From Leifsonia williamsii (GTDB taxonomy: Bacteria > Actinomycetota > Actinomycetes > Actinomycetales > Microbacteriaceae): a stretch of DNA of 64,000 bases. Below are positions 53,537-64,000 of this stretch, one piece after another. The notes under the pieces were generated by a model. The model was given only the letters and a program-made list of their open reading frames with translations. It had not been told where the DNA came from and did no database searches. Within the stretch, counting starts at the first letter, position 1, and every line of letters begins with the position of its first letter. Both the position numbers and the translations under genes were made by a program. The DNA is taken from assembly GCF_030433685.1 (NCBI RefSeq), contig NZ_JAROCF010000001.1:2852001-2916000 (forward strand), given 5' to 3'.

Positions 53537-53558
53537 TCAGCCGCCGGTCAGCCGCCGG
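53537..53558. repeat. 11-bp tandem duplication across a stop codon
   Basis: TCAGCCGCCGG is repeated head-to-tail at 53537-53547 and 53548-53558. On the minus strand it copies the last codons and TGA stop of the membrane-protein gene. The second stop is out of frame with the first. It lies in the 35-base gap between two convergent genes. Confidence 0.7.
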
Positions 53559-54090
53559 TGGGCGGCTCCATCGGCGTGATGGTCATCGTGCCGCTGCCGA
53601 ACGGGAACGGGAAGAACACGGTGCCGTCGGTCGGAGCAGGCGACACGAAGATCCACACGGTCGCAATCACCATCGACACGACCGCGATGGCGACGACGAG
53701 GATGGTGGCGCGGTTGAGCGTCCGCAGCGCGCGGTCGAGGTCGGTCGCCCGGGCCGCCCGGGTCACCGCGACGATCACGGTGACCGCGATGGCGAGGTAG
53801 ACGACCGGGCTCGGGTGCAGGGTGGCCTGGAAGCACTGCGGTGCGACATCCGTGGGATCGCCCGCGGCGTCCACGTAGCCGTCGGCGGAGAAACCGCCAG
53901 GGCAGCTGCCCTTCGAGCCGCTCAGGGTGGAGTAGACGACCGCGGCACCGAGCGCCCAGAGCAGCAGGGTGCGGGCGCGCCGGAGTAGTGGAGCGGCGGG
54001 CAGCGGAGCAGCCGCCAGTTGCGTGGTCGGCGGCGGCTGCATGAGTGTCTCCGCGGCGTCCTGCTGCTCAGCCTGCGCGTCCTCCGCCAT
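53548..54090 (-). CDS. Hypothetical two-helix membrane protein
   Basis: A 180-residue protein with no recognised family. A hydrophilic N-terminus rich in Ala/Gln/Pro is followed by helix 1 (about 40-56, TLLLWALGAAVVYSTL), an extracytoplasmic loop with Cys pairs (CPGGFSADGYVDAAGDPTDV; PQCFQATL), then helices at VVYLAIAVTVIVAVTRAA and ATILVVAIAVVSMVIATVWI. I chose ATG 54090 for its GGAGGGGGAG ribosome binding site over an ATG 36 bases upstream. It lies just after the FGGY kinase gene but 73 bases away, so it may be a separate unit. Confidence 0.6.
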   Translation of the reverse strand: MAEDAQAEQQDAAETLMQPPPTTQLAAAPLPAAPLLRRARTLLLWALGAAVVYSTLSGSKGSCPGGFSADGYVDAAGDPTDVAPQCFQATLHPSPVVYLAIAVTVIVAVTRAARATDLDRALRTLNRATILVVAIAVVSMVIATVWIFVSPAPTDGTVFFPFPFGSGTMTITPMEPPTGG

Positions 54091-54163
54091 CGGCTCCCCC
54101 TCCGCTCGATGGTGCCATCCTGGCACAGGAGCAGGGCGCGGCGGCGCGGTGCGGCCCCCGGGT

Positions 54164-55582
54164 TCAGTCGACCGCGCTGTCGCTCAGCTCCTCGCTCAGT
54201 GCGCGGACGCCCTCGCGCGCGCGGCGGTGCAGCGGGCGCAGACGCGCGTACTCCCCCGCATCCGACGATGGCAGGACCGGGTCCGTGAGCCGGACCATCG
54301 CATCGAGCGCGACGTCCCAGCCGGCGTGCATCCCCGACCCCACTGCGGCGCACACGGCGGCGCCGAGGCCGGCGGCGTCGTCCAGGGCGGCGCGTCGCAC
54401 CGGCCGTCCGGTGACATCGGCAACCAGTTGCGGCAGGACCCGCGAGCGGGCGCCGCCGCCCGTGACCAGCACCTCCGTGAAGGCACTCCCCAGCTCCGCC
54501 GCCATGGCGTCGGCGTTGTCCGCCATCTCGAACGCGATCCCCTCCAGGATGGCGCGGTAGACGTGGGCGCGACCCTGCGCTCCGGAGAAGCCCAGCAACG
54601 CGCCGCGACGGCCGGGATGGTCGGCCGGAGCGAGCCAGTCCAGCACCGCCCGGACGCCATCGCTCCCCGGCGGCAGCAGCGCCGCCTCCCGGTCGAGCTC
54701 CGCCTCCAGGTCGTACATGGCGTCGTCGCGCGGCCCGGCGCCCTGCAGCAGCGACCGGAACCAGCTCACCGTCCACATCCCGCGCCGGATCCCCCCGCTC
54801 TCCGCCAGGTACTGCCCCGGACGGGAGCCGAAGTTGACCCAGTGCGCGGCCCCGCCACCCGGCGCCGCCGCGACGGTCATCGAGGAGATGTAGGTGCCCA
54901 GCGAGAGGAGCAGCTGGTCCGGACGCGCCAGCCCGGCGCCCAGCGCCTCCACCGCCTTGTCGTTGGCCGTGGCGAACACCGGCACGCCCGGCGGCAGACC
55001 CGTGGCCGCAGCGGCGGCCTCCGTCACGGTGCCGAGCCGGTCCCCCGGGTCGACGAGGTCGAACAGCAGCTCGCGCGGCATCCCGGTGGCCTGGTACGCC
55101 GACGGATCGTCGGACCACCGCCAGGTCGTCTGGTCGATCGGCCAGACGCCCTGGTAGTTGGCCGCGGTGTCGACGAAGCGTCCGGTGAGGCGATGCGCGA
55201 TGTAGCCGGAGGAGGTGGTGACCCGCGCGACCCGGGGGTCGTCGTGCCGGTAGGGGCGGCCGACCCGCTCGTCCATCCAGCTCAGCAGCGGCTCCGCCAG
55301 GTCGCCGCTCTCCGTGAGCAGTGCGCGGCAGAACCGGATCGTGCAGAGCCCGACACCCACGATGCGGGACGGGTCGCCCTCGAAGCGGTCGAGGGCGATC
55401 CGGCAGGCCGCGGCGATCGAGGTCCACACGTCGTCGTCGGGATGCACGGCCCGGCCGGGGCCGGGATGCCGATACGGCAGCAGTCCGACCCTCGCCGACG
55501 CATGCACGACGCCGCGCTCGTCGACGACGAGCACCTTCGTGCTCTGCGAGCCGTTGTCGATGGCGACGACGTACGAGGTCAC
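54164..55582 (-). CDS. FGGY-family carbohydrate kinase
   Basis: ATP-dependent kinase of the xylulokinase/glycerol-kinase superfamily, 472 residues. VVAIDNGSQSTKVLVVDERG is the N-terminal phosphate-1 region, IDQTTWRWSDDP and FATANDKAVEALGAGL lie between the lobes, LSLGTYISSMT is the phosphate-2 region and EVLVTGGGARSRVLPQLVAD the adenosine motif. The sugar or polyol substrate cannot be assigned. GTG 55582 overlaps the FAD-oxidase stop (GTGA), so it is the last gene of the accessory operon and is translated in step with that enzyme. Confidence 0.9.
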   Translation of the reverse strand: MTSYVVAIDNGSQSTKVLVVDERGVVHASARVGLLPYRHPGPGRAVHPDDDVWTSIAAACRIALDRFEGDPSRIVGVGLCTIRFCRALLTESGDLAEPLLSWMDERVGRPYRHDDPRVARVTTSSGYIAHRLTGRFVDTAANYQGVWPIDQTTWRWSDDPSAYQATGMPRELLFDLVDPGDRLGTVTEAAAAATGLPPGVPVFATANDKAVEALGAGLARPDQLLLSLGTYISSMTVAAAPGGGAAHWVNFGSRPGQYLAESGGIRRGMWTVSWFRSLLQGAGPRDDAMYDLEAELDREAALLPPGSDGVRAVLDWLAPADHPGRRGALLGFSGAQGRAHVYRAILEGIAFEMADNADAMAAELGSAFTEVLVTGGGARSRVLPQLVADVTGRPVRRAALDDAAGLGAAVCAAVGSGMHAGWDVALDAMVRLTDPVLPSSDAGEYARLRPLHRRAREGVRALSEELSDSAVD

Positions 55583-57063
55583 GCGTCCGCGCCCTCCGGC
55601 GCCGCGGCGAGCGGGAGGATGGTACCGGGGTTCATGATCCCGTTCGGGTCCAGCGCCGCCTTGAGCCGCACGAGCAGCTCGTAGGCGGAGCCGTGCTCCT
55701 CGGCGGTCCAGTCGGTGCGGTACTTGCCGATGCCGTGGTGGTGCACCATGGAGCCGCCCAGCCGCAGCGCCTCCTCCACGATGATGGCGTTGAGGGGCTT
55801 GTGGTAGAGCTCGATCTCGTCGCGGGGCTCGCAGCGGATGTCGTAGTCGTACACGAAGTACAGGTTGGTGCCGGTCTGGTAGCTGTGCGAGGAGTGCGCG
55901 CCGAGCATGGTGAGATCGGCAGCCCGGTCGAAGGTGGTCCGGATGCGGTCCATCACCGCCGTGTACAGCGCGTCCACGCGGGACCAGTCGATGGAGACCT
56001 CGGTCGTGTACCCCAGATGATTCGTCTCGAGCATCTGGCGCTTCTCGGCGTCGATCTTGTCCTGCCCCCAGTTGAGCTGGTCGAACCACGTCCGGATGCG
56101 CTCGTCCGGGACCCGCTGGAACAGCGGCTCGGTGAACAGCTCCTCGATCGCGTCGGCGGTGGCGTCCGCCAGGCGGCGCGGCCCCTCGGCGACCAGGACG
56201 ACGACGTTCTTGCCGTCGGAGACGTCCGCGAAGTGCTGCCGGGCGTCCTCCGGCGAGTACAAGCGGCAGACGGAGGGGCGGTAGCCCTCGGCGATCAGCT
56301 CGCGCAGGGCGTCCACCCCGGCCGCGAAGTCATCGGTCAGGAAGCCGAAGAAGCGGTAGTTCTCCGGCTGGAACCGGAACACCTTCACGGTGACCTCGGT
56401 GATGAAGAACAGCGCGCCCTCGTTGCCGATGACGAGGTGCCGCAGGTCGGGGCCGGCCGCACGGCGCGGCACGTTCTTGATCCGCGTGATGGTGCCGTCG
56501 GCGAGCACCGCCTCCAGTCCCACCACCATGTCCTCGATGCCGCCGTAGAGCGTCGAGAACTGCCCGATCGACCGGGTGGCGGTGAGGCCGCCGTACTGCG
56601 CCAGCGGCTTCGACTGGGGCGAGTGGCCGGTGGTCAGCCCGCGCTCGCGCAGCTCGTCCTCCAGCCGCTGCAGCGGGACGCCGCACTGCACGGTGACCAT
56701 CAGGTCGGTCTCGTTCACCGACAGCACCGCGTCCATCCGCGAACCGTCGAGGACGATGGAGTCGGCGATCACCGTCTCCAGACCGCCCTCGGTGGCGGTG
56801 CGGCCGGTGCGCGGGACGACGGCGACGCGGTTCTCGTCGGCGAAGCGGAGCACGGTCGAGACGTCGTCCGTCGAGCGCGGGTAGGCGATCGCCGCGGGGA
56901 ACGGCCCGTCGAAGATGCCGTGCACGGCCGTGTACTTCTTGAAGCGGTCGACGCTGGCCTCGCGGAGCGCGGCCTCGTCGGTGTCGACCTGAGCGGCGCC
57001 GAGGAGCGCGGTCAGGCGCTCGGCGATCTGCTCTCGGGAGAGGGCGGAGCGGGAAGCGGGCAT
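55579..57063 (-). CDS. FAD-linked oxidase resembling alkyl-DHAP synthase
   Basis: A 494-residue flavoprotein with an N-terminal FAD_binding_4 domain (YPRSTDDVSTVLRFADEN; VVPRTGRTATEGGLET) and a C-terminal FAD-oxidase_C-like domain. The C-terminal HHHGIGKYRTDW matches the active-site histidine segment of alkyldihydroxyacetonephosphate synthase better than glycolate oxidase or lactate dehydrogenase. It may oxidise a 2-hydroxyacid, or condense or cleave at a ketose-phosphate; the product of the adjacent kinase would fit as substrate. Start ATG 57063; SDR gene upstream (41-base gap). Confidence 0.82.
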   Translation of the reverse strand: MPASRSALSREQIAERLTALLGAAQVDTDEAALREASVDRFKKYTAVHGIFDGPFPAAIAYPRSTDDVSTVLRFADENRVAVVPRTGRTATEGGLETVIADSIVLDGSRMDAVLSVNETDLMVTVQCGVPLQRLEDELRERGLTTGHSPQSKPLAQYGGLTATRSIGQFSTLYGGIEDMVVGLEAVLADGTITRIKNVPRRAAGPDLRHLVIGNEGALFFITEVTVKVFRFQPENYRFFGFLTDDFAAGVDALRELIAEGYRPSVCRLYSPEDARQHFADVSDGKNVVVLVAEGPRRLADATADAIEELFTEPLFQRVPDERIRTWFDQLNWGQDKIDAEKRQMLETNHLGYTTEVSIDWSRVDALYTAVMDRIRTTFDRAADLTMLGAHSSHSYQTGTNLYFVYDYDIRCEPRDEIELYHKPLNAIIVEEALRLGGSMVHHHGIGKYRTDWTAEEHGSAYELLVRLKAALDPNGIMNPGTILPLAAAPEGADA

Positions 57064-57104
57064 GGATCGGTTCCTTGCGTTCGGGAGCGGATGGTCGGGG
57101 TGCG

Positions 57105-57881
57105 TCAGCGGAGGAGGTAGCCGCCGTCGACGACGAGCGTGTGCCCGGTGACATAGTCGGCCGCGCGGCTGGACAGGAAGACGAGCGCGCCCATGAGGTC
57201 GGCCGGGTCGCCCCAGCGGCCGGCGGGCACGTGGTCGACGATGCGCGCGTTGGCGACGGCGTCCGACCGGGTGCGCTCGGTCAGCGCGGTCGCGAAGTAG
57301 CCGGGCGCGATGGCGTTGACCTGGATGCCGTACTCCCCGAGCTCGTCCGCGTACGCCTTCGTGAAGCCGACGATGCCGGCCTTCGATGCGGCGTACGCCG
57401 GCGACTGCTTGCCGCCGAGGAACGAGAACAGGGAGGCGATGTTGACGATCTTGCCCGAGCGCTGCGGGATCATCGCCCGGGCGGCGGCGTGCGCGAAGTC
57501 GAAGGCGGCGGTCAGGTTGACCGCGAGCATCGGATCCCACTTGTCGCGGCCGAACGCGGTCACGTCGTCGAGCAGGTTGATGCCCGCCGAGTTGACCAGG
57601 ATGTCGAGGCCGCCGAGCGTCTCGACGCACTGCCCGACCATCTCCTGCGGAACGCCCGTCCGCGTGATGTCGGCGGCGGCGAAGGCGTAGCGCCGGCCGT
57701 GGCCCTCCACCAGCCGCGCCGTCGTCCCGTCGTCGTCGGCCAGGCTGGGCACGAACACGTCGGCGCCGGCCGCGGCGAGCGCGACGGTGAACGCGCGGCC
57801 GAGGCCGCCGTTGCCGCCGGTGACCATCGCCCGCTTGCCTTCGAGCGAGAACAGGGCGGTGCTGAAGTCGGTGATCTCCAC
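57105..57881 (-). CDS. SDR-family oxidoreductase
   Basis: A 258-residue classical short-chain dehydrogenase: MVTGGNGGLGRAFTVAL (NAD(P) loop), NSAGINLLDDV, INIASLFSFLG-type Ser (NIASLFSFLGGK), and YAASKAGIVGFTKAYADEL with the Tyr-Lys pair. C-terminal SSRAADYVTGHTLVVDGGYL is typical. It probably interconverts an alcohol and a ketone in the operon's pathway (similar to 2-deoxygluconate or xylitol-type dehydrogenases). The GTG at 57881 is two bases past the aldehyde dehydrogenase stop. Confidence 0.87.
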   Translation of the reverse strand: MEITDFSTALFSLEGKRAMVTGGNGGLGRAFTVALAAAGADVFVPSLADDDGTTARLVEGHGRRYAFAAADITRTGVPQEMVGQCVETLGGLDILVNSAGINLLDDVTAFGRDKWDPMLAVNLTAAFDFAHAAARAMIPQRSGKIVNIASLFSFLGGKQSPAYAASKAGIVGFTKAYADELGEYGIQVNAIAPGYFATALTERTRSDAVANARIVDHVPAGRWGDPADLMGALVFLSSRAADYVTGHTLVVDGGYLLR

Positions 57882-57883
57882 GG

Positions 57884-59380
57884 TCAGCCCTCCGTGCTCT
57901 CAGCGTGGACGGCGGCGGCGAACGGGTCGGCGATGCCGACGTACCGGGTCTCGAGGTACTCCTCGATGCCTTCGAAGCCGCCTTCGCGGCCGAGCCCGGA
58001 CTGCTTGACGCCGCCGAAGGGCGCCGCGGGGTTGGAGACGACGCCGGCGTTGAGCCCGAGCATGCCGCTGTCGAGCTCCTCCGCCAGGCGCAGGCCGCGG
58101 TTCAGGTCGCGGGTGTAGACGAAGGCGACCAGGCCGAACTCGGTGGCGTTGGCGAGGCGGACCGCCTCCTCCTCGGTGCGGAACGTCGTGATGGGAGCGA
58201 CCGGGCCGAAGATCTCCTCGCCCAGGATGCGGGCGTCGGCGGGTACGTCGGTGAGGACGGTCGGCTGGTAGAAGTATCCGGCGCCTGAGACGCGTTCGCC
58301 GCCGACGGCGATCCGGGCACCATCGGACACGGCCTGCTGAACAAGCGACTCCACCTTGTCCCGGGTGGCGGCGTCGACCAGGGGGCCCATGGTGACGCCC
58401 TGCTCGGTGCCACGACCGACCCGGTAGGCGGCGATGCGCTCGGCGAACGCCGCGGTGAACTCCTCGGCGATGGATTCGTGGACGAGGAAGCGGTTGGCGG
58501 CCACGCAGGCCTCTCCCCCGTTGCGCATCTTCGCGAGCACGGCTCCGTCGACGGCGGCGGGGAGGTCGGCGTCCTCGAAGACGAGGAAGGGCGCGTTGCC
58601 TCCCAGTTCCATGGAGACGCGCAGCACCTGGTCGGCGGAGGCCGCGATCAGGCGGCGTCCGACCTCGGTGGACCCCGTGAACGACAGCTTCCGCAGCCGC
58701 GGGTCGGCGATCAGGGGTCCGGTGACGGCGCCGGCACGGGTCGTGGGGATGACGTTGAGCACTCCGGCGGGCAGACCGGCCTCCTCCAGCACGCTCGTGA
58801 GCAGCAGCGCGGTGAGCGGGGTGAGCGCCGCGGGCTTCAACACCATGGTGCATCCGGCGGCGATGGCCGGCGCGATCTTGCGGGTCGCCATCGCGAGCGG
58901 GAAGTTCCACGGGGTGATGAACAGGGAGGGGCCGACCGGCCGCTTGACGACCAGGAGCCTGTTGGCGCCGTCGGGAGCGGTGGCGTACCGGCCGGAGACG
59001 CGCACGGCCTCCTCGGAGAACCAGCGCAGGAACTCCGCGCCGTACGCGACCTCGCCGCGGGCCTCCGCCAGCGGCTTGCCCATCTCCAGGGTCATCGCGA
59101 GGGCGAATTCGTCCGCTCTGGCCGTGACCAGCTCGAAGGCCCGCCGCAGGATCTCGGCGCGCTCGCGCGGCGCGGTCCTGGCCCAGCCGCGCTGGGCCGC
59201 GTGCGCCGCGGCGAGGGCGGCGTCGCCGTCCTCGGGCGCGGCATCGGCCACGCGGGCGAGCACCTGCTCTGTGGCGGGGTCGATCACGTCGAAGCGCGCG
59301 CCGGAGGCGGAGTCCCGCCAGGCGCCGTCGATGTAGAGCCCGGTAGGCAGGCGGTCGAGCAGCTCGCGCTCCGCGATCAC
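57884..59380 (-). CDS. NAD(P)-dependent aldehyde dehydrogenase (succinate-semialdehyde type)
   Basis: A 498-residue ALDH-superfamily enzyme oxidising an aldehyde to its acid. The cofactor region is FITPWNFPLAMATRKIAPA with PAIAAGCTMVLKPAALTPLT, the Glu base lies in VSMELGGNAPFLVFEDADL, and the catalytic Cys is in RNGGEACVAANRFLVH, most like GabD. C-terminal PFGGVKQSGLGREGGFEG is standard. GTG 59380 overlaps the upstream reductase stop (GTGA). The true substrate is unknown; an aldehyde made by a neighbouring enzyme is likely. Confidence 0.88.
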   Translation of the reverse strand: MIAERELLDRLPTGLYIDGAWRDSASGARFDVIDPATEQVLARVADAAPEDGDAALAAAHAAQRGWARTAPRERAEILRRAFELVTARADEFALAMTLEMGKPLAEARGEVAYGAEFLRWFSEEAVRVSGRYATAPDGANRLLVVKRPVGPSLFITPWNFPLAMATRKIAPAIAAGCTMVLKPAALTPLTALLLTSVLEEAGLPAGVLNVIPTTRAGAVTGPLIADPRLRKLSFTGSTEVGRRLIAASADQVLRVSMELGGNAPFLVFEDADLPAAVDGAVLAKMRNGGEACVAANRFLVHESIAEEFTAAFAERIAAYRVGRGTEQGVTMGPLVDAATRDKVESLVQQAVSDGARIAVGGERVSGAGYFYQPTVLTDVPADARILGEEIFGPVAPITTFRTEEEAVRLANATEFGLVAFVYTRDLNRGLRLAEELDSGMLGLNAGVVSNPAAPFGGVKQSGLGREGGFEGIEEYLETRYVGIADPFAAAVHAESTEG

Positions 59381-60318
59381 CGGGCCACCCCCTCGGGGGC
59401 GGCGTCCGCGACGAGGCGCAGCGGTGTGCCGATCAGGTCCTCGTACAGCTGGAACGGCGCCATCTCGCCCGCGCGGTCGCCGTACTGGGCACGCCCGCGG
59501 CGGAACACCTGGTCGACCAGCGCGGACAGCTCGACCGGCACCCCGACCGAGCGGGCGAGGTCGATGGACAGGCCCAGGTCCTTGCAGGCGAGGGCGAGCG
59601 CGAAGCCTTCGTCGTAGTCGCCGTGCTCCAGGATCGAGAGCACGTCCCGCTCGACGAAGGTGCTGTTCGCCGGGCTTGCGACCAGCGAGTCGCGCAGCAC
59701 GCCGAGGTCGACGCCGGCCTTCACGCCGACGGCCAGCACCTCCGCCGTGGCCACGAGGTGCGAGAACCACAGCTGGTTGATCATGAGCTTCACCGCGTAG
59801 CCGGCGCCGTTCCCGCCCACGTGGAGGATGCGCTCCGGGTCGCCCATCGCCTCGAACACCGGGCGCAGCCGCTCGACGTCCGCGGCCTCCCCGCCGACGA
59901 AGATCTGCAACGTGCCGTTGGCCGCTCCCACCGACATCCCGCTCACCGGGGCGTCGAGGATGTGCAGCCCGCGGCCGGCGTTCGCGGCACGGACGGCGTC
60001 GGCCACCTCCGGCACCGAGGTCGACATGTCGATCCAGGTGCCGCCGTCGCGGATGCCCTCGAGCACGCCGCCCGGCCCGCTCACCGCGTCGGAGACGTGG
60101 CGCGGGGTCGGGAGCATCGTGATGACGAGGTCGGAGGCGGCGGCCACCTCGGCCGCGGTGGGCGCCCAGCGGGCGCCGCCGGCGATGAGCTCGGCCGCTG
60201 ACTCGGGCCGCAGGTCGGTCACCACCAGCGGGAAGCCGGCCCGCTGGAGGTTGCGGGTCATCCCGCCTCCCATGCTGCCGAGGCCGATGAAGCCGACGGT
60301 GGGGTTCTGTGCTGTCAT
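59377..60318 (-). CDS. 3-hydroxyisobutyrate dehydrogenase-like reductase
   Basis: A 313-residue beta-hydroxyacid dehydrogenase-family protein: VGFIGLGSMGGGMTRNL (NAD(P) loop), VTDLRPESA, TWIDMSTSVPEVADAV, DAPVSGMSVGAANGTLQIFV, and GNGAGYAVKLMINQLW with the catalytic Lys and Asn. Its relatives act on 3-hydroxyisobutyrate, tartronate semialdehyde or gluconate derivatives. It sits between the Fae-like protein and the aldehyde dehydrogenase, both overlapped or close, so a hydroxyacid/semialdehyde step in the same pathway is likely. Confidence 0.87.
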   Translation of the reverse strand: MTAQNPTVGFIGLGSMGGGMTRNLQRAGFPLVVTDLRPESAAELIAGGARWAPTAAEVAAASDLVITMLPTPRHVSDAVSGPGGVLEGIRDGGTWIDMSTSVPEVADAVRAANAGRGLHILDAPVSGMSVGAANGTLQIFVGGEAADVERLRPVFEAMGDPERILHVGGNGAGYAVKLMINQLWFSHLVATAEVLAVGVKAGVDLGVLRDSLVASPANSTFVERDVLSILEHGDYDEGFALALACKDLGLSIDLARSVGVPVELSALVDQVFRRGRAQYGDRAGEMAPFQLYEDLIGTPLRLVADAAPEGVAR

Positions 60319-60361
60319 GTTCCTTTTCCTCAGGAGGCCGCGTGCCGTCGTCGCCGGCGGT

Positions 60362-60883
60362 TCAGGCGGGGGCGGTGTAGAAGGGGTTGGCCGGGCGGTG
60401 GCGCGCGGCCAGCACGTCGTCGAGGGCGGGGAGTCCGGCGACGCCGTTGCGCAGCGCGGTCGCCGTGGCCTCGCGGTTGTTGCGGTACACGGCGTCGGCG
60501 TCGTCGGCGCCGGGGTTCACCCAGACGGCCGCGACGATGACGTCGGTGTCGGCCGCCTCCCGGGGGATGACGCCCTCGGCGACCGCGTCGGCCACGCCCG
60601 CCGCGACCCCGGCCTGCGCCGGGCCCCAGATGAGGGTGCCGTGCTCGTCGCCGGCGGGGGCGGACTTCGTGACGAACAGGGTGAGCGGCTTCACCGGCAG
60701 CGACGGCGCGAGCACCGCCACGAAGGGCACGTGTCCGGCGCTCGGGGAGGCGAGGGCCGAGGCCCACGCCACCCCCGCCGGCCCGGTGCGCGGGCCGGCG
60801 ACGGTGTTGATGTGGGCGGCGTTGACGCCGTCCCCGACGAAGCTCTCGCCGATGCGCAGCACGCCCTCTCGCGCGTCCGTCAT
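60362..60883 (-). CDS. Formaldehyde-activating enzyme (Fae) homologue
   Basis: A 173-residue protein matching the Fae family (condensation of formaldehyde with tetrahydromethanopterin). Recognised blocks are RIGESFVGDGVNAAHINTV with His24 at the catalytic His position, FVAVLAPSLPVKPLTLFVTK, LIWGPAQAGVAAGVADAVAE and VIPREAADTDVIVAAVWVNP. Canonical Fae belongs to methylotrophs with the H4MPT pathway; non-H4MPT homologues of unknown function are also known. No H4MPT gene is present in the window. The ATG is one base into the binding-protein stop (TGATG). The partner cofactor and substrate are open questions. The family call is by motif, not by search. Confidence 0.82.
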   Translation of the reverse strand: MTDAREGVLRIGESFVGDGVNAAHINTVAGPRTGPAGVAWASALASPSAGHVPFVAVLAPSLPVKPLTLFVTKSAPAGDEHGTLIWGPAQAGVAAGVADAVAEGVIPREAADTDVIVAAVWVNPGADDADAVYRNNREATATALRNGVAGLPALDDVLAARHRPANPFYTAPA

Positions 60884-61821
60884 CAGATCAGGCCCTCGTC
60901 CTTGAGGAACTCCTCGGCGACGTCGGCCGGCTCGTCGCCGTCGACGTCGACCTTGGCGTTCAGCTCCTGCATCTTCTCGGTGGTCAGCTTGGAGGAGACC
61001 TTCGCCAGGATGTCGGCGATCGCCGGGTACTTCTTCAGGATCGACTCCTGCATGGAGAACGCGCCCTGATACACGGGGAAGAACTTCTTGTCGTCGTCCA
61101 TGACGGTGAGGTCGAGCGCCTTGATCCGGCCGTCGGTCGCGAACACCTCGCCGAAGTTGCAGTCGCTGCCCTTCTGGGTCGCGGTGTAGATGATGCCGGT
61201 GTCGAGCATCTTGACGTTGGAGTCGGGCACGTCGAGTCCGTACGCCTTCTTGAGCCCCGGCCAGCCGTCGTCGCGGGTCGAGAACTCGCTCTCGATGCAG
61301 AAGGTCTTGTCGCTCGCCTTCAGCTTCGCGACGTCGCTCAGCGTCTTCACGCCGAGCTTCTTGCCCTCGGAGGAGCGGATCGCGAAGGCGTAGGTGTTGT
61401 TGAGCGGCGCGGGGTCGAGCCAGGCGATGCCCTTGTCGGCGTCGGCCTTCTTGACCGCGTCGAACTGCTCCTGCGGGTCGGTGATGGGGGCGGTGTTGCC
61501 CTGGTAGGTGATCCAGGCGGTGCCGGTGTACTCCCAGTAGCCGACGAACTGCTTGTTCTCGAGCGCCTGGCGGACGTTCTGCGAGCCGACCAGCTTGGTG
61601 TTCGCCTCCAGGTCGGCGCCGTGGGCGTTGAGCAGGTCGGTGGTGATGTAGGCCAGGATGTACTGCTCCGAGAAGTCCTTCGAGCCGATCTGGCCGGTCA
61701 GGCCCTTCAGCTCGTCGCCCTTGGCCCCGGACGATCCGGCGCTGCTTCCCGAGCAGCCGGTCATGAGCAGGGCCGCTGCGGCGGCGACCGCCGCGACGGA
61801 GAGGTGCCTCTTGGTGAACAT
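60883..61821 (-). CDS. Quaternary-ammonium ABC transporter substrate-binding lipoprotein (OpuBC/ProX type)
   Basis: A 312-residue OpuAC-domain lipoprotein. The signal peptide ends in LLMTGCSGSS (lipobox, Cys23), then GQIGSKDFSEQYILAYITTD, the family's opening strand. Later blocks are WEYTGTAWITYQGN, WLDPAPLNNTYAFAIRSSEG, TFCIESEFSTRDDGWPG and the C-terminal EEFLKDEGLI. Relatives bind glycine betaine, choline or carnitine through an aromatic cage; the ligand here cannot be named. It has a good GGAG ribosome site (AAGGAGAACC) and is immediately followed by the Fae homologue. Confidence 0.9.
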   Translation of the reverse strand: MFTKRHLSVAAVAAAAALLMTGCSGSSAGSSGAKGDELKGLTGQIGSKDFSEQYILAYITTDLLNAHGADLEANTKLVGSQNVRQALENKQFVGYWEYTGTAWITYQGNTAPITDPQEQFDAVKKADADKGIAWLDPAPLNNTYAFAIRSSEGKKLGVKTLSDVAKLKASDKTFCIESEFSTRDDGWPGLKKAYGLDVPDSNVKMLDTGIIYTATQKGSDCNFGEVFATDGRIKALDLTVMDDDKKFFPVYQGAFSMQESILKKYPAIADILAKVSSKLTTEKMQELNAKVDVDGDEPADVAEEFLKDEGLI

Positions 61822-61904
61822 GGTTCTCCTTCAGTGTGAATGCGGTGCGGGTGTGCGTGATGACGCCGTGACGCGGCTCTGCGTGCGCGGCGGGTGGAAG
61901 CGGC

Positions 61905-62678
61905 TCAGAGGCCGCGGGGACGTACGAGGTCTTCGACCAGCCCGGCGAGCCAGTCGATGAGGATGGCGATGGCGGCGACGAGGACCGCCCCGACCAGCAG
62001 CACGGGGAAGCGCTGGAGCTTCAGGCCGTTCACGATCATGTCGCCGAGACCGCCGGCGTTGATGAAGGTGGCGACGGTGGCGACGCCGACGCAGAACACC
62101 AGCGAGGTGCGCAGGCCGGCGAGGATCGTCGGCGACGCGAGCGGCAGTTCGATCCGGCGCAGCACCTGGCCGGGCGTCATGCCCATGCCGCGCGCCGCCT
62201 CCTTCGCGTCGGCGCTCACCTGCTCCAGCCCGATCAACGTGTTCCGCAGCACCGGGAGGAAGGAGTAGGCGACCAGCGCCACCAGCGCCGTGAGGAACCC
62301 GGTCTGCCAGACGATCGCGAGCAGGATCACCACACCGACGGCCGGCGTCGCCTGGCCGATGTTGCCGAGGCCGAGCACGATCGCGCGGAACCAGCCCGCC
62401 TTCACCCGATGCACGGCGATCCCGGCCGGAATGGCGAGCAGGGCCACGAGTGCGGACGCCACGACCGTCAGGACGAGGTGCTCGCGGATGCGCGCCGAGA
62501 TGTACTCGGGGTTCAGGGTCCGCTGCTCGATCGAGTCGAGGGTGAGGGTCGAGATCCAGAGGAACACCAGGCCGACCAGCACCACGACGACGACGGGGGC
62601 GGCGAACCGGCGGGCCGCGGCACCGACGCGGCGGCCGGTCGACACCCGGCCGGTACTCCAGTCGAGTGCGGCGGTCAT
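61905..62678 (-). CDS. ABC transporter permease (OpuBB/BD, ProW type)
   Basis: A 257-residue membrane protein with about six helices (APVVVVVLVGLVFLWISTL; LVLTVVASALVALLAIPAGI; VVILLAIVWQTGFLTALVAL). The coupling loop EAARGMGMTPGQVLRRIELP contains the EAA motif that contacts the ATPase. It overlaps the ATPase gene by four bases (ATG 62678). With the permease at the right edge it gives the permease-ATPase-permease-binding protein layout of opuB/opuC operons. Confidence 0.9.
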   Translation of the reverse strand: MTAALDWSTGRVSTGRRVGAAARRFAAPVVVVVLVGLVFLWISTLTLDSIEQRTLNPEYISARIREHLVLTVVASALVALLAIPAGIAVHRVKAGWFRAIVLGLGNIGQATPAVGVVILLAIVWQTGFLTALVALVAYSFLPVLRNTLIGLEQVSADAKEAARGMGMTPGQVLRRIELPLASPTILAGLRTSLVFCVGVATVATFINAGGLGDMIVNGLKLQRFPVLLVGAVLVAAIAILIDWLAGLVEDLVRPRGL

Positions 62679-63763
62679 CGCGGCTCCTCCCCGAGGTTCA
62701 CCCTGGTCGGCTGCGCCTCGCGCGTCGCCAGCGGGCCGCCGAGCACTGCCGAGATGGCCGCGTGGTCGAGCGCACCCTGCGGAGCGCCCGCCGTGTCGAC
62801 GACGGTGACCGTCGGGCTCCCCGTGAGGACGATCAGATCCAGCGCGTCGCGCAGCGTCGCGGTCACGGCGATCTGCGGCGCGCGGTCGTCGATGCTGTTC
62901 GCGAGCCGCGCCTCCCCGACCGGGATCAGCGCCAGCCGCTTGATGGCCGCGCCCTGGCCGATGAACGAGGCCACGTAGTCGTTGGCCGGGTTCGCCAGGA
63001 TGTTGGCCGGCGTGTCGAACTGCTCGATCCGGCTGCGCTCGCTGAGCACGGCGATACGGTCGCCGAGGCGGACGGCCTCGTCGAAGTCGTGGGTGACGAA
63101 GATGATCGTCTTGCCGATCTCCGCCTGCAGCCGCAGGAACTCGGCCTGCAGCCGCTCGCGGGTGATCGGGTCGGTCGCCCCGAACGGCTCGTCCATCAGC
63201 ATCACGGGCGGGTCTGCCGCGAGCGCCCTGGCGACGCCGGCCCGCTGCTGCTGGCCGCCGGAGAGCTGGCGCGGGTAGCGGCGGGCGAAGGTGCCGGGGT
63301 CGAGCTGGACGGTGCGCAGCAGCTCGTCCACCCGCTCGGCGATGCGGTCCTTCGACCAGCCGAGCATCCGCGGCACGGTCGCGATGTTCTCGGCGATGGT
63401 GCGGTGCGGGAAGAGGCCGATCTGCTGGATCACGTATCCCACGTGGCGGCGCAGCTGGTTGGGGTCGAGGGAGAGGACGTCCTTACCGTCGATCCGGATG
63501 CTTCCCGAGGTGGGCTCGATCAGCCTGTTAATCATCTTCATGGTCGTCGTCTTGCCGCAGCCGCTCGGGCCGACGAACATGACGAGCTCGCCCGGCTCCA
63601 CGCGCATCGAGAAGTCCTCGACGGCGGGAGCGGGCTGCCCGGCATAGTTCTTGGTGACACCGTCGAGCTCGATGGCGACGCCGGCGGACTGGCGGGCGAT
63701 GGCGGACAGGAAGCCGGTGTTGGTCAGGGCGGCGGCGTCCGGGGTGGTGGTCGACTCAGGCAC
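62675..63763 (-). CDS. ABC transporter ATP-binding protein (OpuBA/ProV type)
   Basis: A 362-residue ATPase energising the quaternary-ammonium importer. FVGPSGCGKTTTMKMINRL is Walker A with the family's KMINRL, QLSGGQQQRAGVARAL the ABC signature, VMLMDEPFGATDPITRERL Walker B, and IIFVTHDFDEAVRL the switch His. The C-terminal region (about 270-350) looks like a CBS-type pair (VTATLRDALDLIVLTGSP), often tied to osmotic gating in this family. GTG 63763 overlaps the upstream permease stop by eight bases. Confidence 0.92.
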   Translation of the reverse strand: MPESTTTPDAAALTNTGFLSAIARQSAGVAIELDGVTKNYAGQPAPAVEDFSMRVEPGELVMFVGPSGCGKTTTMKMINRLIEPTSGSIRIDGKDVLSLDPNQLRRHVGYVIQQIGLFPHRTIAENIATVPRMLGWSKDRIAERVDELLRTVQLDPGTFARRYPRQLSGGQQQRAGVARALAADPPVMLMDEPFGATDPITRERLQAEFLRLQAEIGKTIIFVTHDFDEAVRLGDRIAVLSERSRIEQFDTPANILANPANDYVASFIGQGAAIKRLALIPVGEARLANSIDDRAPQIAVTATLRDALDLIVLTGSPTVTVVDTAGAPQGALDHAAISAVLGGPLATREAQPTRVNLGEEPR

Positions 63764-64000
63764 GGAGACCCCTCGAGGTGGTGTGGCGGGAGATGAGGAT
63801 GAAGGCGCCGTCGACGAGCAGAGCGAGCACGATGATCGCGACCGTGCCGGCGACGGCGTAGTTGATGGCGTTCTTGGAGCCGATGGACGAGAGCCCCTTG
63901 AAGATGTACTGACCGAGCCCGGGCCCCGCGACGTAGGCGGCGATGGCGGCGATGCCGATGGTCAGCTGGGCGGCGACGCGTACGCCGGTCACGATGACGG
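63756..64000 (-). CDS. ABC transporter permease (5' part beyond window)
   Basis: C-terminal part of a ProW/OpuB-type permease, cut by the right edge. The visible frame has GVRVAAQLTIGIAAIAAYVA, a GPGLGQYIFKG loop, and a last helix (INYAVAGTVAIIVLALLVDGAF) ending in ISRHTTSRGLRA. Codons continue to the edge without a start that fits the family, so the N-terminus is missing. It is the most upstream gene seen of this operon. Confidence 0.8.
   Translation of the reverse strand, partial: VIVTGVRVAAQLTIGIAAIAAYVAGPGLGQYIFKGLSSIGSKNAINYAVAGTVAIIVLALLVDGAFILISRHTTSRGLRA

Follow-up and report, generated by a model that had tools for sequence, protein, structure and literature searches.

A conserved gene set of soil bacteria, found in Leifsonia williamsii as a ten-gene operon, has, as judged from sequence comparison, the look of an undescribed pathway for the uptake and dismantling of a glycerol-ether betaine, probably the head group of betaine lipids. 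Many algae and non-flowering plants have the betaine lipid DGTS in place of phosphatidylcholine (PMC9892843), and a marine bacterium starved of phosphate uses it in place of phospholipids (PMC10132767). If this reading is correct, the operon would supply candidate genes for betaine-lipid head-group breakdown, a hypothesis on what the E. coli ygc genes do, and a new role outside C1 metabolism for Fae (formaldehyde-activating enzyme), and would be a possible source of trimethylamine.

The window is the whole 64,000-nucleotide stretch of DNA that was analysed. All ten genes of the tight operon lie on its minus strand, from 54164 to just past the window end at 64000, and are given here in transcription order, followed by a divergent regulator:

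63756..64000, minus strand, extending past the window to 64475 or 64493 (two start choices): ABC permease 1, OpuB type (tblastn)
62675..63763, minus strand: ABC ATPase of the betaine/proline/choline (ProV) type (TIGR01186, 318 bits against a cut-off of 326.6)
61905..62678, minus strand: ABC permease 2 (profile searches)
60883..61821, minus strand: substrate-binding protein, SBP (PF04069; Tyr98, Tyr212 and Tyr251 unchanged across six diverse homologues)
60362..60883, minus strand: Fae homologue (PF08714; TIGR03126, 156.8 bits, cut-off 118)
59377..60318, minus strand: HIBADH-family enzyme resembling beta-hydroxyacid dehydrogenases, proposed to act as a homoserine-betaine dehydrogenase
57884..59380, minus strand: aldehyde dehydrogenase, ALDH (best NCBIfam model SSADH, 554.9 bits against a cut-off of 646)
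57105..57881, minus strand: SDR, proposed C2 dehydrogenase of a phosphorylated glyceryl ether (59% to E. coli YgcW)
55579..57063, minus strand: FAD enzyme (59% identical to E. coli YgcU; AGPS as the closest solved structures; residues R267, Y402 and H441-H443 kept)
54164..55582, minus strand: FGGY kinase (44% identical to E. coli YgcE)
64544-65392, past the window end: IclR regulator, divergent from the operon

In the same order, the genes overlap by 8 bases (permease 1/ATPase) and 4 (ATPase/permease 2), are separated by 83 (permease 2 to SBP), overlap by 1 (SBP/Fae), are separated by 43 (Fae to HIBADH), overlap by 4 (HIBADH/ALDH), are separated by 2 (ALDH to SDR) and 41 (SDR to FAD enzyme), and overlap by 4 (FAD enzyme/kinase). 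These five overlaps bear out the earlier note, which described a one-strand run of ten genes, many of them overlapping by 1 to 8 bases; its gene set and strand stand, and its extent is corrected in that the first permease begins outside the window. The gene families are also those it gave, as found by profile searches of ten proteins (nine from the operon plus its neighbour at 53548) and by tblastn for permease 1. It had recognised no described pathway in the combination of a Fae homologue and an AGPS-like flavoenzyme with an importer of the quaternary-ammonium type, and this holds. Among the open-access matches listed, there is no description of betaine-lipid or trimethylhomoserine catabolism by such a pathway or of Fae in a pathway of this kind, and no pathway description for a bacterial AGPS with an FGGY kinase was found in that literature. 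What the note missed is that three of the genes correspond to ygcW-ygcU-ygcE of E. coli.

The judgement that the substrate was not deducible was too pessimistic, as comparison of relatives narrows the substrate class; the two halves of the suggested "small zwitterion or polyol derivative" are combined in the proposed glycerol ether of a betaine. From the observed gene content, conservation, co-occurrence, residue conservation and family assignments, we infer a substrate, a reaction order and direction, and a lyase role for the Fae homologue. With a likelihood somewhat short of even, the operon would catabolise a glycerol-ether-linked betaine by a seven-step route, the likeliest candidate being glyceryl-N,N,N-trimethylhomoserine (the DGTS head group after deacylation). 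Glyceryl-trimethylhomoserine would be taken up by the OpuB-type ABC importer (step 1), phosphorylated at its free glycerol end by the FGGY kinase (step 2), and oxidised at C2 by the YgcW-like SDR to a DHAP ether (step 3). The AGPS-like flavoenzyme would split this ether by AGPS chemistry with water as acceptor, yielding DHAP and homoserine betaine (step 4). The alcohol of homoserine betaine would be oxidised by the HIBADH-like enzyme to trimethylaspartate semialdehyde (step 5), from which the Fae homologue would eliminate trimethylamine to give 4-oxobut-2-enoate (step 6), a predicted substrate of the SSADH-like ALDH, with fumarate as product (step 7). A broader proposal is more tentative: that betaine-lipid head-group breakdown joins AGPS-type ether cleavage to a Fae-family trimethylamine lyase acting without methanopterin before aldehyde oxidation, that a diverged aspartase does the same after oxidation in Vibrio and Priestia, and that E. 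coli ygcUWE is an ether-cleaving module.

The operon is more than a chance assembly: Microbacterium, Sinomonas, Nocardioides, Lentzea and Leucobacter, among others, have the genes in the same order. Across 69 Fae loci compared, a betaine-type binding protein lies near Fae in 62, a hydroxyacid dehydrogenase in 63, an ALDH in 59, and a divergent IclR gene in 64. The earlier note would have given up its operon had transporter and enzymes been unlinked in relatives; most loci keep them together. The two units are divergent or split in some loci (L048, L066-type, L099/L140), and in Leucobacter the transporter and SDR-FAD-FGGY share an IclR locus of their own. A YgcS-like MFS takes the place of the ABC importer at Leifsonia and Nocardia loci, and an AKR or Zn-ADH substitutes for the HIBADH-like enzyme at others. 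Fae is single-copy in the L. williamsii genome and present in 20 of 199 Microbacteriaceae genomes. All 20 carry the FAD or the MLE marker, each standing for one of two alternative enzyme modules, while among the 179 genomes without Fae, FAD occurs in 6 and MLE in none. An Fe-ADH/ALDH/enolase-type set stands in for the SDR-FAD-FGGY trio in relatives, and profile searches place no protein of either module in an aldolase family, which weakens a plain sugar pathway; this absence and the co-occurrence with Fae count in favour of a glyceryl betaine. The FAD gene is rare across Actinomycetota (3 of 396 genomes at E <= 1e-100, its own genome included).

The SBP belongs by sequence comparison to the importer family of choline, betaine, carnitine and ergothioneine binders, a further point for the glyceryl betaine. 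It is a PF04069 protein with the conserved aromatic residues of OpuB/OpuC-type importers (Tyr98, Tyr212, Tyr251). These three and Phe50 and Tyr144 are presumably cage positions, the last two not being invariant, unlike the others, in the six homologues. Choline, carnitine, glycine betaine and ergothioneine themselves were set aside as carbon sources, as neither enzyme module fits them. Of the genes typical of known carnitine, choline and betaine degradation (CoA-transferase, demethylase, Rieske monooxygenase, choline oxidation), the profile searches of nine operon proteins and one neighbour found none.

The four best solved-structure matches of the FAD enzyme are AGPS. The catalytic Arg352 and Tyr508 of Dictyostelium AGPS and the histidine triplet of the HHHG motif are kept as R267, Y402 and H441-H443, with no change across nine sequences that span four phyla. 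However, the catalytic Arg447 of the Dictyostelium enzyme aligns by eye to K341, a position that is not invariant in the nine, and the FAD enzyme further differs from AGPS in being bacterial, in its catabolic operon with a kinase, and in the proposed cleavage rather than formation of an ether. The eukaryotic alkyl-DHAP reductase, adjacent to AGPS, is likewise an SDR, according to an excerpt of PMC13200781. The AGPS residues and the SDR analogy count for the proposed route, and K341 against it.

The homologues of YgcW, YgcU and YgcE (59, 59 and 44% identity) are all adjacent in the window, and the likeness extends to YgcS, 38% identical to the replacement MFS of Leifsonia. The E. coli locus differs in having ETF-like, FAD oxidoreductase and antiterminator genes where the operon has Fae, HIBADH and ALDH, and the betaine-type ABC importer is a feature of the operon. 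No function for ygcU, ygcW, ygcE or ygcS was found among the open-access matches listed; an excerpt of PMC8601175 links YgcS to nicotinamide/NMN production, which counts against a glyceryl betaine. Several observations count in its favour: a G3P-type antiterminator lies nearby in 10 of 16 trio loci without Fae that were examined, a distant Novosphingobium homologue (35%) lies beside genes for a GlpD-like protein and an FGGY kinase, and two Enterococcus and one Vibrio have betaine-type transporters adjoining the trio. Yet most trio loci without Fae have MFS transporters and no recognised betaine transporter, so the trio alone is not betaine-specific, which also weighs against the reading. Two trio loci in Actinomycetota of another family (L123, L124) had no informative neighbours among ten proteins scanned.

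The Fae homologue scores above curated cut-offs (TIGR03126, 156.8 against 118.05 bits; PF08714, 176.8 against 27). We take H24, K73, Q90 and Asp19 to be pterin/catalytic site positions of the M. extorquens enzyme. The first three are kept in 70/70 aligned rows (window counted twice), whereas Asp19 is Asn in the same 70 rows and in 6/6 further loci. The methanopterin-pathway markers MCH and FTR are both missing from all 20 Fae genomes; methanopterin methylotrophy was therefore rejected, and, with the Asn at position 19 as well, a role of Fae as a classical formaldehyde handler becomes less likely. The protein also differs from Fae proper in adjoining betaine uptake and short-chain dehydrogenases. 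Given the missing markers, it may be a C-N lyase; we know of no C-N lyase in the Fae family, a point against the route.

The ALDH adjoining Fae is SSADH-like in 11/11 tested, while the ALDH linked to an aspartase-like lyase is nearest BADH in 3/3, as expected if the amine departs before (Fae) or after (lyase) oxidation. These lyases, proposed functional counterparts of Fae, occur in the Vibrio and Priestia trio clusters. They are relatives of aspartate ammonia-lyase that score under its cut-off (348 and 485 bits to NF008909, cut-off 510), and with a Peribacillus homologue they have STSD for STND/SSND and RTC for RT(Q/H), motifs unchanged in four canonical aspartase controls. Motifs and ALDH pattern favour the glyceryl-betaine reading; against it, the Peribacillus ALDH lies ~5.5 kb from its lyase, and its score to HpaE is nearly the same (561 v 552 bits). 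The L. williamsii genome has two aspartase homologues, both canonical and both outside the window.

An unlikely alternative makes the FAD enzyme an ordinary FAD dehydrogenase of the GlcD/D-lactate type, with the trio acting on a polyol or sugar derivative and passing electrons to ETF or quinone; oxidative ether cleavage would be an intermediate version. In E. coli, Enterococcus and Ilyobacter the trio has ETF genes next to it, which suggests electron release rather than redox-neutral AGPS chemistry and so counts against the glyceryl betaine, although the operon has no ETF gene. YgcU is annotated as a putative dehydrogenase, and among NCBIfam models GlcD scores best (136 bits, far short of its cut-off). 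The retained AGPS-type residues, the lack of an aldolase in either module and the several clusters with betaine transporters argue the other way. It is improbable that Fae does act on formaldehyde, released by betaine demethylation, with a cofactor other than methanopterin: the TIGR03126 score and the kept His, Lys and Gln would fit, as would additional roles proposed for Fae-like proteins (PMC3728764), but no demethylase was found in the nine profile-scanned operon proteins, and the MCH/FTR absence and the Asn at position 19 oppose it.

Quite improbable is the same glyceryl-ether logic applied to a different head group, either the DGTA betaine (2-hydroxymethyl-trimethyl-beta-alanine) or some other cationic glycerol ether. 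The substrate of the HIBADH-like enzyme would then be a true beta-hydroxyacid, and loss of the amine together with retro-aldol cleavage could supply formaldehyde for Fae; in favour, the nearest solved relative of the HIBADH-like enzyme is 2-hydroxymethylglutarate dehydrogenase (3cky, 169 bits). Yet the aspartase-like lyases and the SSADH/BADH pattern better match a four-carbon aspartate skeleton, and AKR or Zn-ADH fills the HIBADH position elsewhere. OpuB-type transporters are best known for osmoprotection, and osmolyte uptake beside an unrelated enzyme unit would suit that role; it is very improbable, being disfavoured by the linkage of binding protein and Fae, by the Leucobacter transporter grouped with SDR-FAD-FGGY, and by the YgcS-like MFS that substitutes in Leifsonia and Nocardia.

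The pathway represented by the ten-gene operon is real, conserved, and coherent; its chemistry class is fairly well supported and its exact substrate moderately supported. All ten genes listed in the earlier note were matched on the reverse strand of this 3.89 Mb genome (first permease, ATPase, second permease, binding protein, Fae, HIBADH-like dehydrogenase, ALDH, SDR, FAD enzyme, and FGGY kinase), and the first permease starts beyond the window end. The overlaps described there also hold: they span 1-8 bases at five junctions, and the remaining four gaps are 2-83 bases. The GC content of the window is 68-76% in 4 kb steps. Three stretches flank the operon:

53548-54126, - strand, a small protein after the kinase, without a Pfam or NCBIfam match
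64544-65392, divergent from the operon and outside the window, an IclR regulator
L021:15449-17712 (the locus holding the operon and its flank), + strand, past the window end, two hydrolase-like genes that come after the IclR gene (labeled from reading the translation)

The 53548-54126 protein probably lies outside the pathway, since no homologue of it turned up among the other loci compared. The first of the two hydrolase-like genes was likewise missing from those loci.

A tblastn comparison, with identity thresholds fixed in its script, covered the window locus and 68 named Fae loci. IclR (64/69), the ABC binding protein (62/69), HIBADH (63/69), and ALDH (59/69) recur, and when only the 57 loci that are 18 kb or longer are counted, the figures are 56, 51, 56, and 54. 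Module A, scored as present when at least one of SDR, FAD enzyme, and FGGY kinase is found, occurs in 35 of the 69 loci. Module B is present in 30 (scored as MLE or the second ALDH); it consists of MLE, which is a mandelate-racemase-type member of the enolase superfamily, together with a second ALDH and an Fe-type alcohol dehydrogenase. Both modules occur in one locus (L048) and neither in five; three of these five (L042, L059, and L078) are on short contigs, the L099 genome has an FAD gene elsewhere, and the L103 genome has an MLE homologue (45%) elsewhere. The set is split in Leucobacter ruminantium, where L140 holds IclR-ABC-SDR-FAD-FGGY and L099 holds IclR-Fae-HIBADH-ALDH, and in Streptomyces clavuligerus, where the ABC-Fae-HIBADH-ALDH genes are about 290 kb from the trio (SDR, FAD enzyme, and kinase) on one plasmid. 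In the Sinomonas susongensis importer (L074), the first permease gene is present in two tandem copies.

Fae was found in 20 of 199 drawn genomes of the family (Microbacteriaceae), and the FAD and MLE genes in 14 each (E <= 1e-100). Every one of the 20 Fae genomes carries FAD or MLE, as against six with FAD and none with MLE among the 179 genomes lacking Fae (Fisher 1.6e-22, ignoring kinship of genomes). The same transporter swap accompanies both modules: an MFS protein 38% identical to E. coli YgcS replaces the ABC importer in Leifsonia L080 and L022 with module A, and relatives (65-66%) of the YgcS-like MFS replace it in Nocardia L105, L107, and L108 with module B. Given this swap and the co-occurrence with Fae, modules A and B probably act on the same imported compound, with Fae-HIBADH-ALDH as the common lower path. 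In the genome search, one stop is reported for each of the FAD genes of G022, G055, G146, G289, and G591, inside the matched frame or at its end; it may mark decay or simply where the match ends.

The trio resembles E. coli YgcW (SDR, 59%), YgcU (FAD enzyme, 59%), and YgcE (kinase, 44%), and the best four matches of the FAD enzyme among solved structures are alkyl-DHAP synthases (AGPS). The positions aligned to window R267 and Y402 are exactly those at which two guinea-pig AGPS chains, presumably the R419H and Y578F mutants, depart from the wild-type sequence. These two residues and histidines 441-443 are invariant among nine sequences from four phyla; position 341 varies. Dictyostelium AGPS R352, Y508, and R447, described as important for catalysis in a passage of PMC3509576, align with R267, Y402, and K341 (alignment read by eye, chain index plus 3). 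In ether-lipid synthesis the AGPS product is reduced by an SDR, DHRS7B (excerpt of PMC13200781). No module A or B member was assigned to an aldolase family. The main evidence against redox-neutral ether cleavage is that E. coli, Enterococcus, and Ilyobacter have ETF genes next to the trio.

The binding protein comes closest to proteins that bind choline, betaine, carnitine, and ergothioneine; its Tyr98, Tyr212, and Tyr251 stay invariant even when the Enterococcus proteins are included, and Phe50 and Tyr144 are not invariant. Taken together, the quaternary ammonium, the glycerol ether, and an end product resembling aspartate fit glyceryl-trimethylhomoserine as the candidate substrate. Through module B, the glycerol end would be oxidized to a glycerate ether, from which the alcohol would be eliminated to leave pyruvate, yielding the same alcohol as module A. 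An excerpt of PMC9892843 describes the enzymes that break the DGTS ether bond as not identified. Overexpression of E. coli YgcS is tied to NMN production (part of PMC8601175), a link that neither supports nor excludes the glyceryl-betaine reading.

By sequence the window protein is a Fae, and the pterin context is absent: neither MCH nor FTR was found in any of the 20 Fae genomes. At the site positions of the M. extorquens enzyme, His, Lys, and Gln are kept, with Asn at the Asp19 position, in 70/70 aligned rows. These rows are the query and 69 called proteins, most of them from the named loci and up to seven from elsewhere; the window is thus counted twice, and loci where gene calling missed Fae are excluded. 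Asn also occupies the Asp19 position in six further distant loci. Burkholderiales loci (Caballeronia L111; also L126 and L127) have Fae, AKR, ALDH, and a YgcS-like MFS (55% to YgcS in L111), and Ensifer L118 has AKR, Fae, and ALDH; in Glaciimonas L103 the ALDH is missing at the Fae locus.

Elsewhere a lyase is found, aspartate-ammonia-lyase-like with a score under the cut-off. In Priestia, lyase, ALDH, and Zn-ADH genes, in this order, adjoin the trio, an IclR gene, and a YgcS-like MFS (56% to YgcS); in Vibrio the lyase and ALDH genes are accompanied by an AKR on the far side of a LysR gene. The Priestia, Vibrio, and Peribacillus lyases have STSD for STND/SSND, RTC(L/M)QD for RT(Q/H)L(Q/M)D, and GIG/GIS for GTS/GTQ, the canonical motifs being found in E. 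coli AspA, FumC, and both homologues of the window genome. These positions presumably lie at the amine site of aspartase, where a trimethylammonium group would be better served by smaller residues. The ALDH beside Fae is best matched by an SSADH-type model in 11/11 proteins (window, L041, L072, L101, L105, L107, L110, L111, L118, L126, and L127), four of which exceed the TIGR01780 cut-off. The lyase-linked ALDH is best matched by a betaine-aldehyde dehydrogenase model in 3/3, in Peribacillus by a narrow margin and about 5.5 kb from the lyase. This pattern agrees with a path in which Fae would remove the amine before oxidation and the lyase would do so afterward; the proposed role of Fae is supported only by elimination and the ALDH pattern. 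On a Peribacillus sp. R9-11 plasmid (L122:8998-11556), an aspartase-like lyase and a BCCT transporter share one reading frame, annotated as BCCT transporter; a transposase lies nearby, and the frame is a candidate natural fusion or rearrangement.

Sixteen trio loci without Fae were examined (L109, L112-L116, L121, L123, L124, and L131-L137). A G3P-type antiterminator is near the trio in ten (E. coli, Streptomyces clavuligerus, two Enterococcus, and six of seven Microbacteriaceae). Transporters include an OpuC-type ABC system (the two Enterococcus loci), two BCCT transporters within about 12 kb (Vibrio pelagius), a BCCT fragment of 163 aligned residues (Ilyobacter), and MFS proteins in most of the remaining loci. 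More distant FAD homologues (31-32%) in Paracoccus L119 and Shinella L120 accompany a xylulokinase-like gene, a UgpC-type (sugar) ABC transporter, a glycerol or Fe-type dehydrogenase, and an SDR, in what looks like a second, undescribed cluster. On the Novosphingobium plasmid L117, an FAD homologue (35%) has a GlpD-like gene on one side and an FGGY kinase on the other, the glycerol-3-phosphate-dehydrogenase-like gene occupying the place of the SDR in other clusters.
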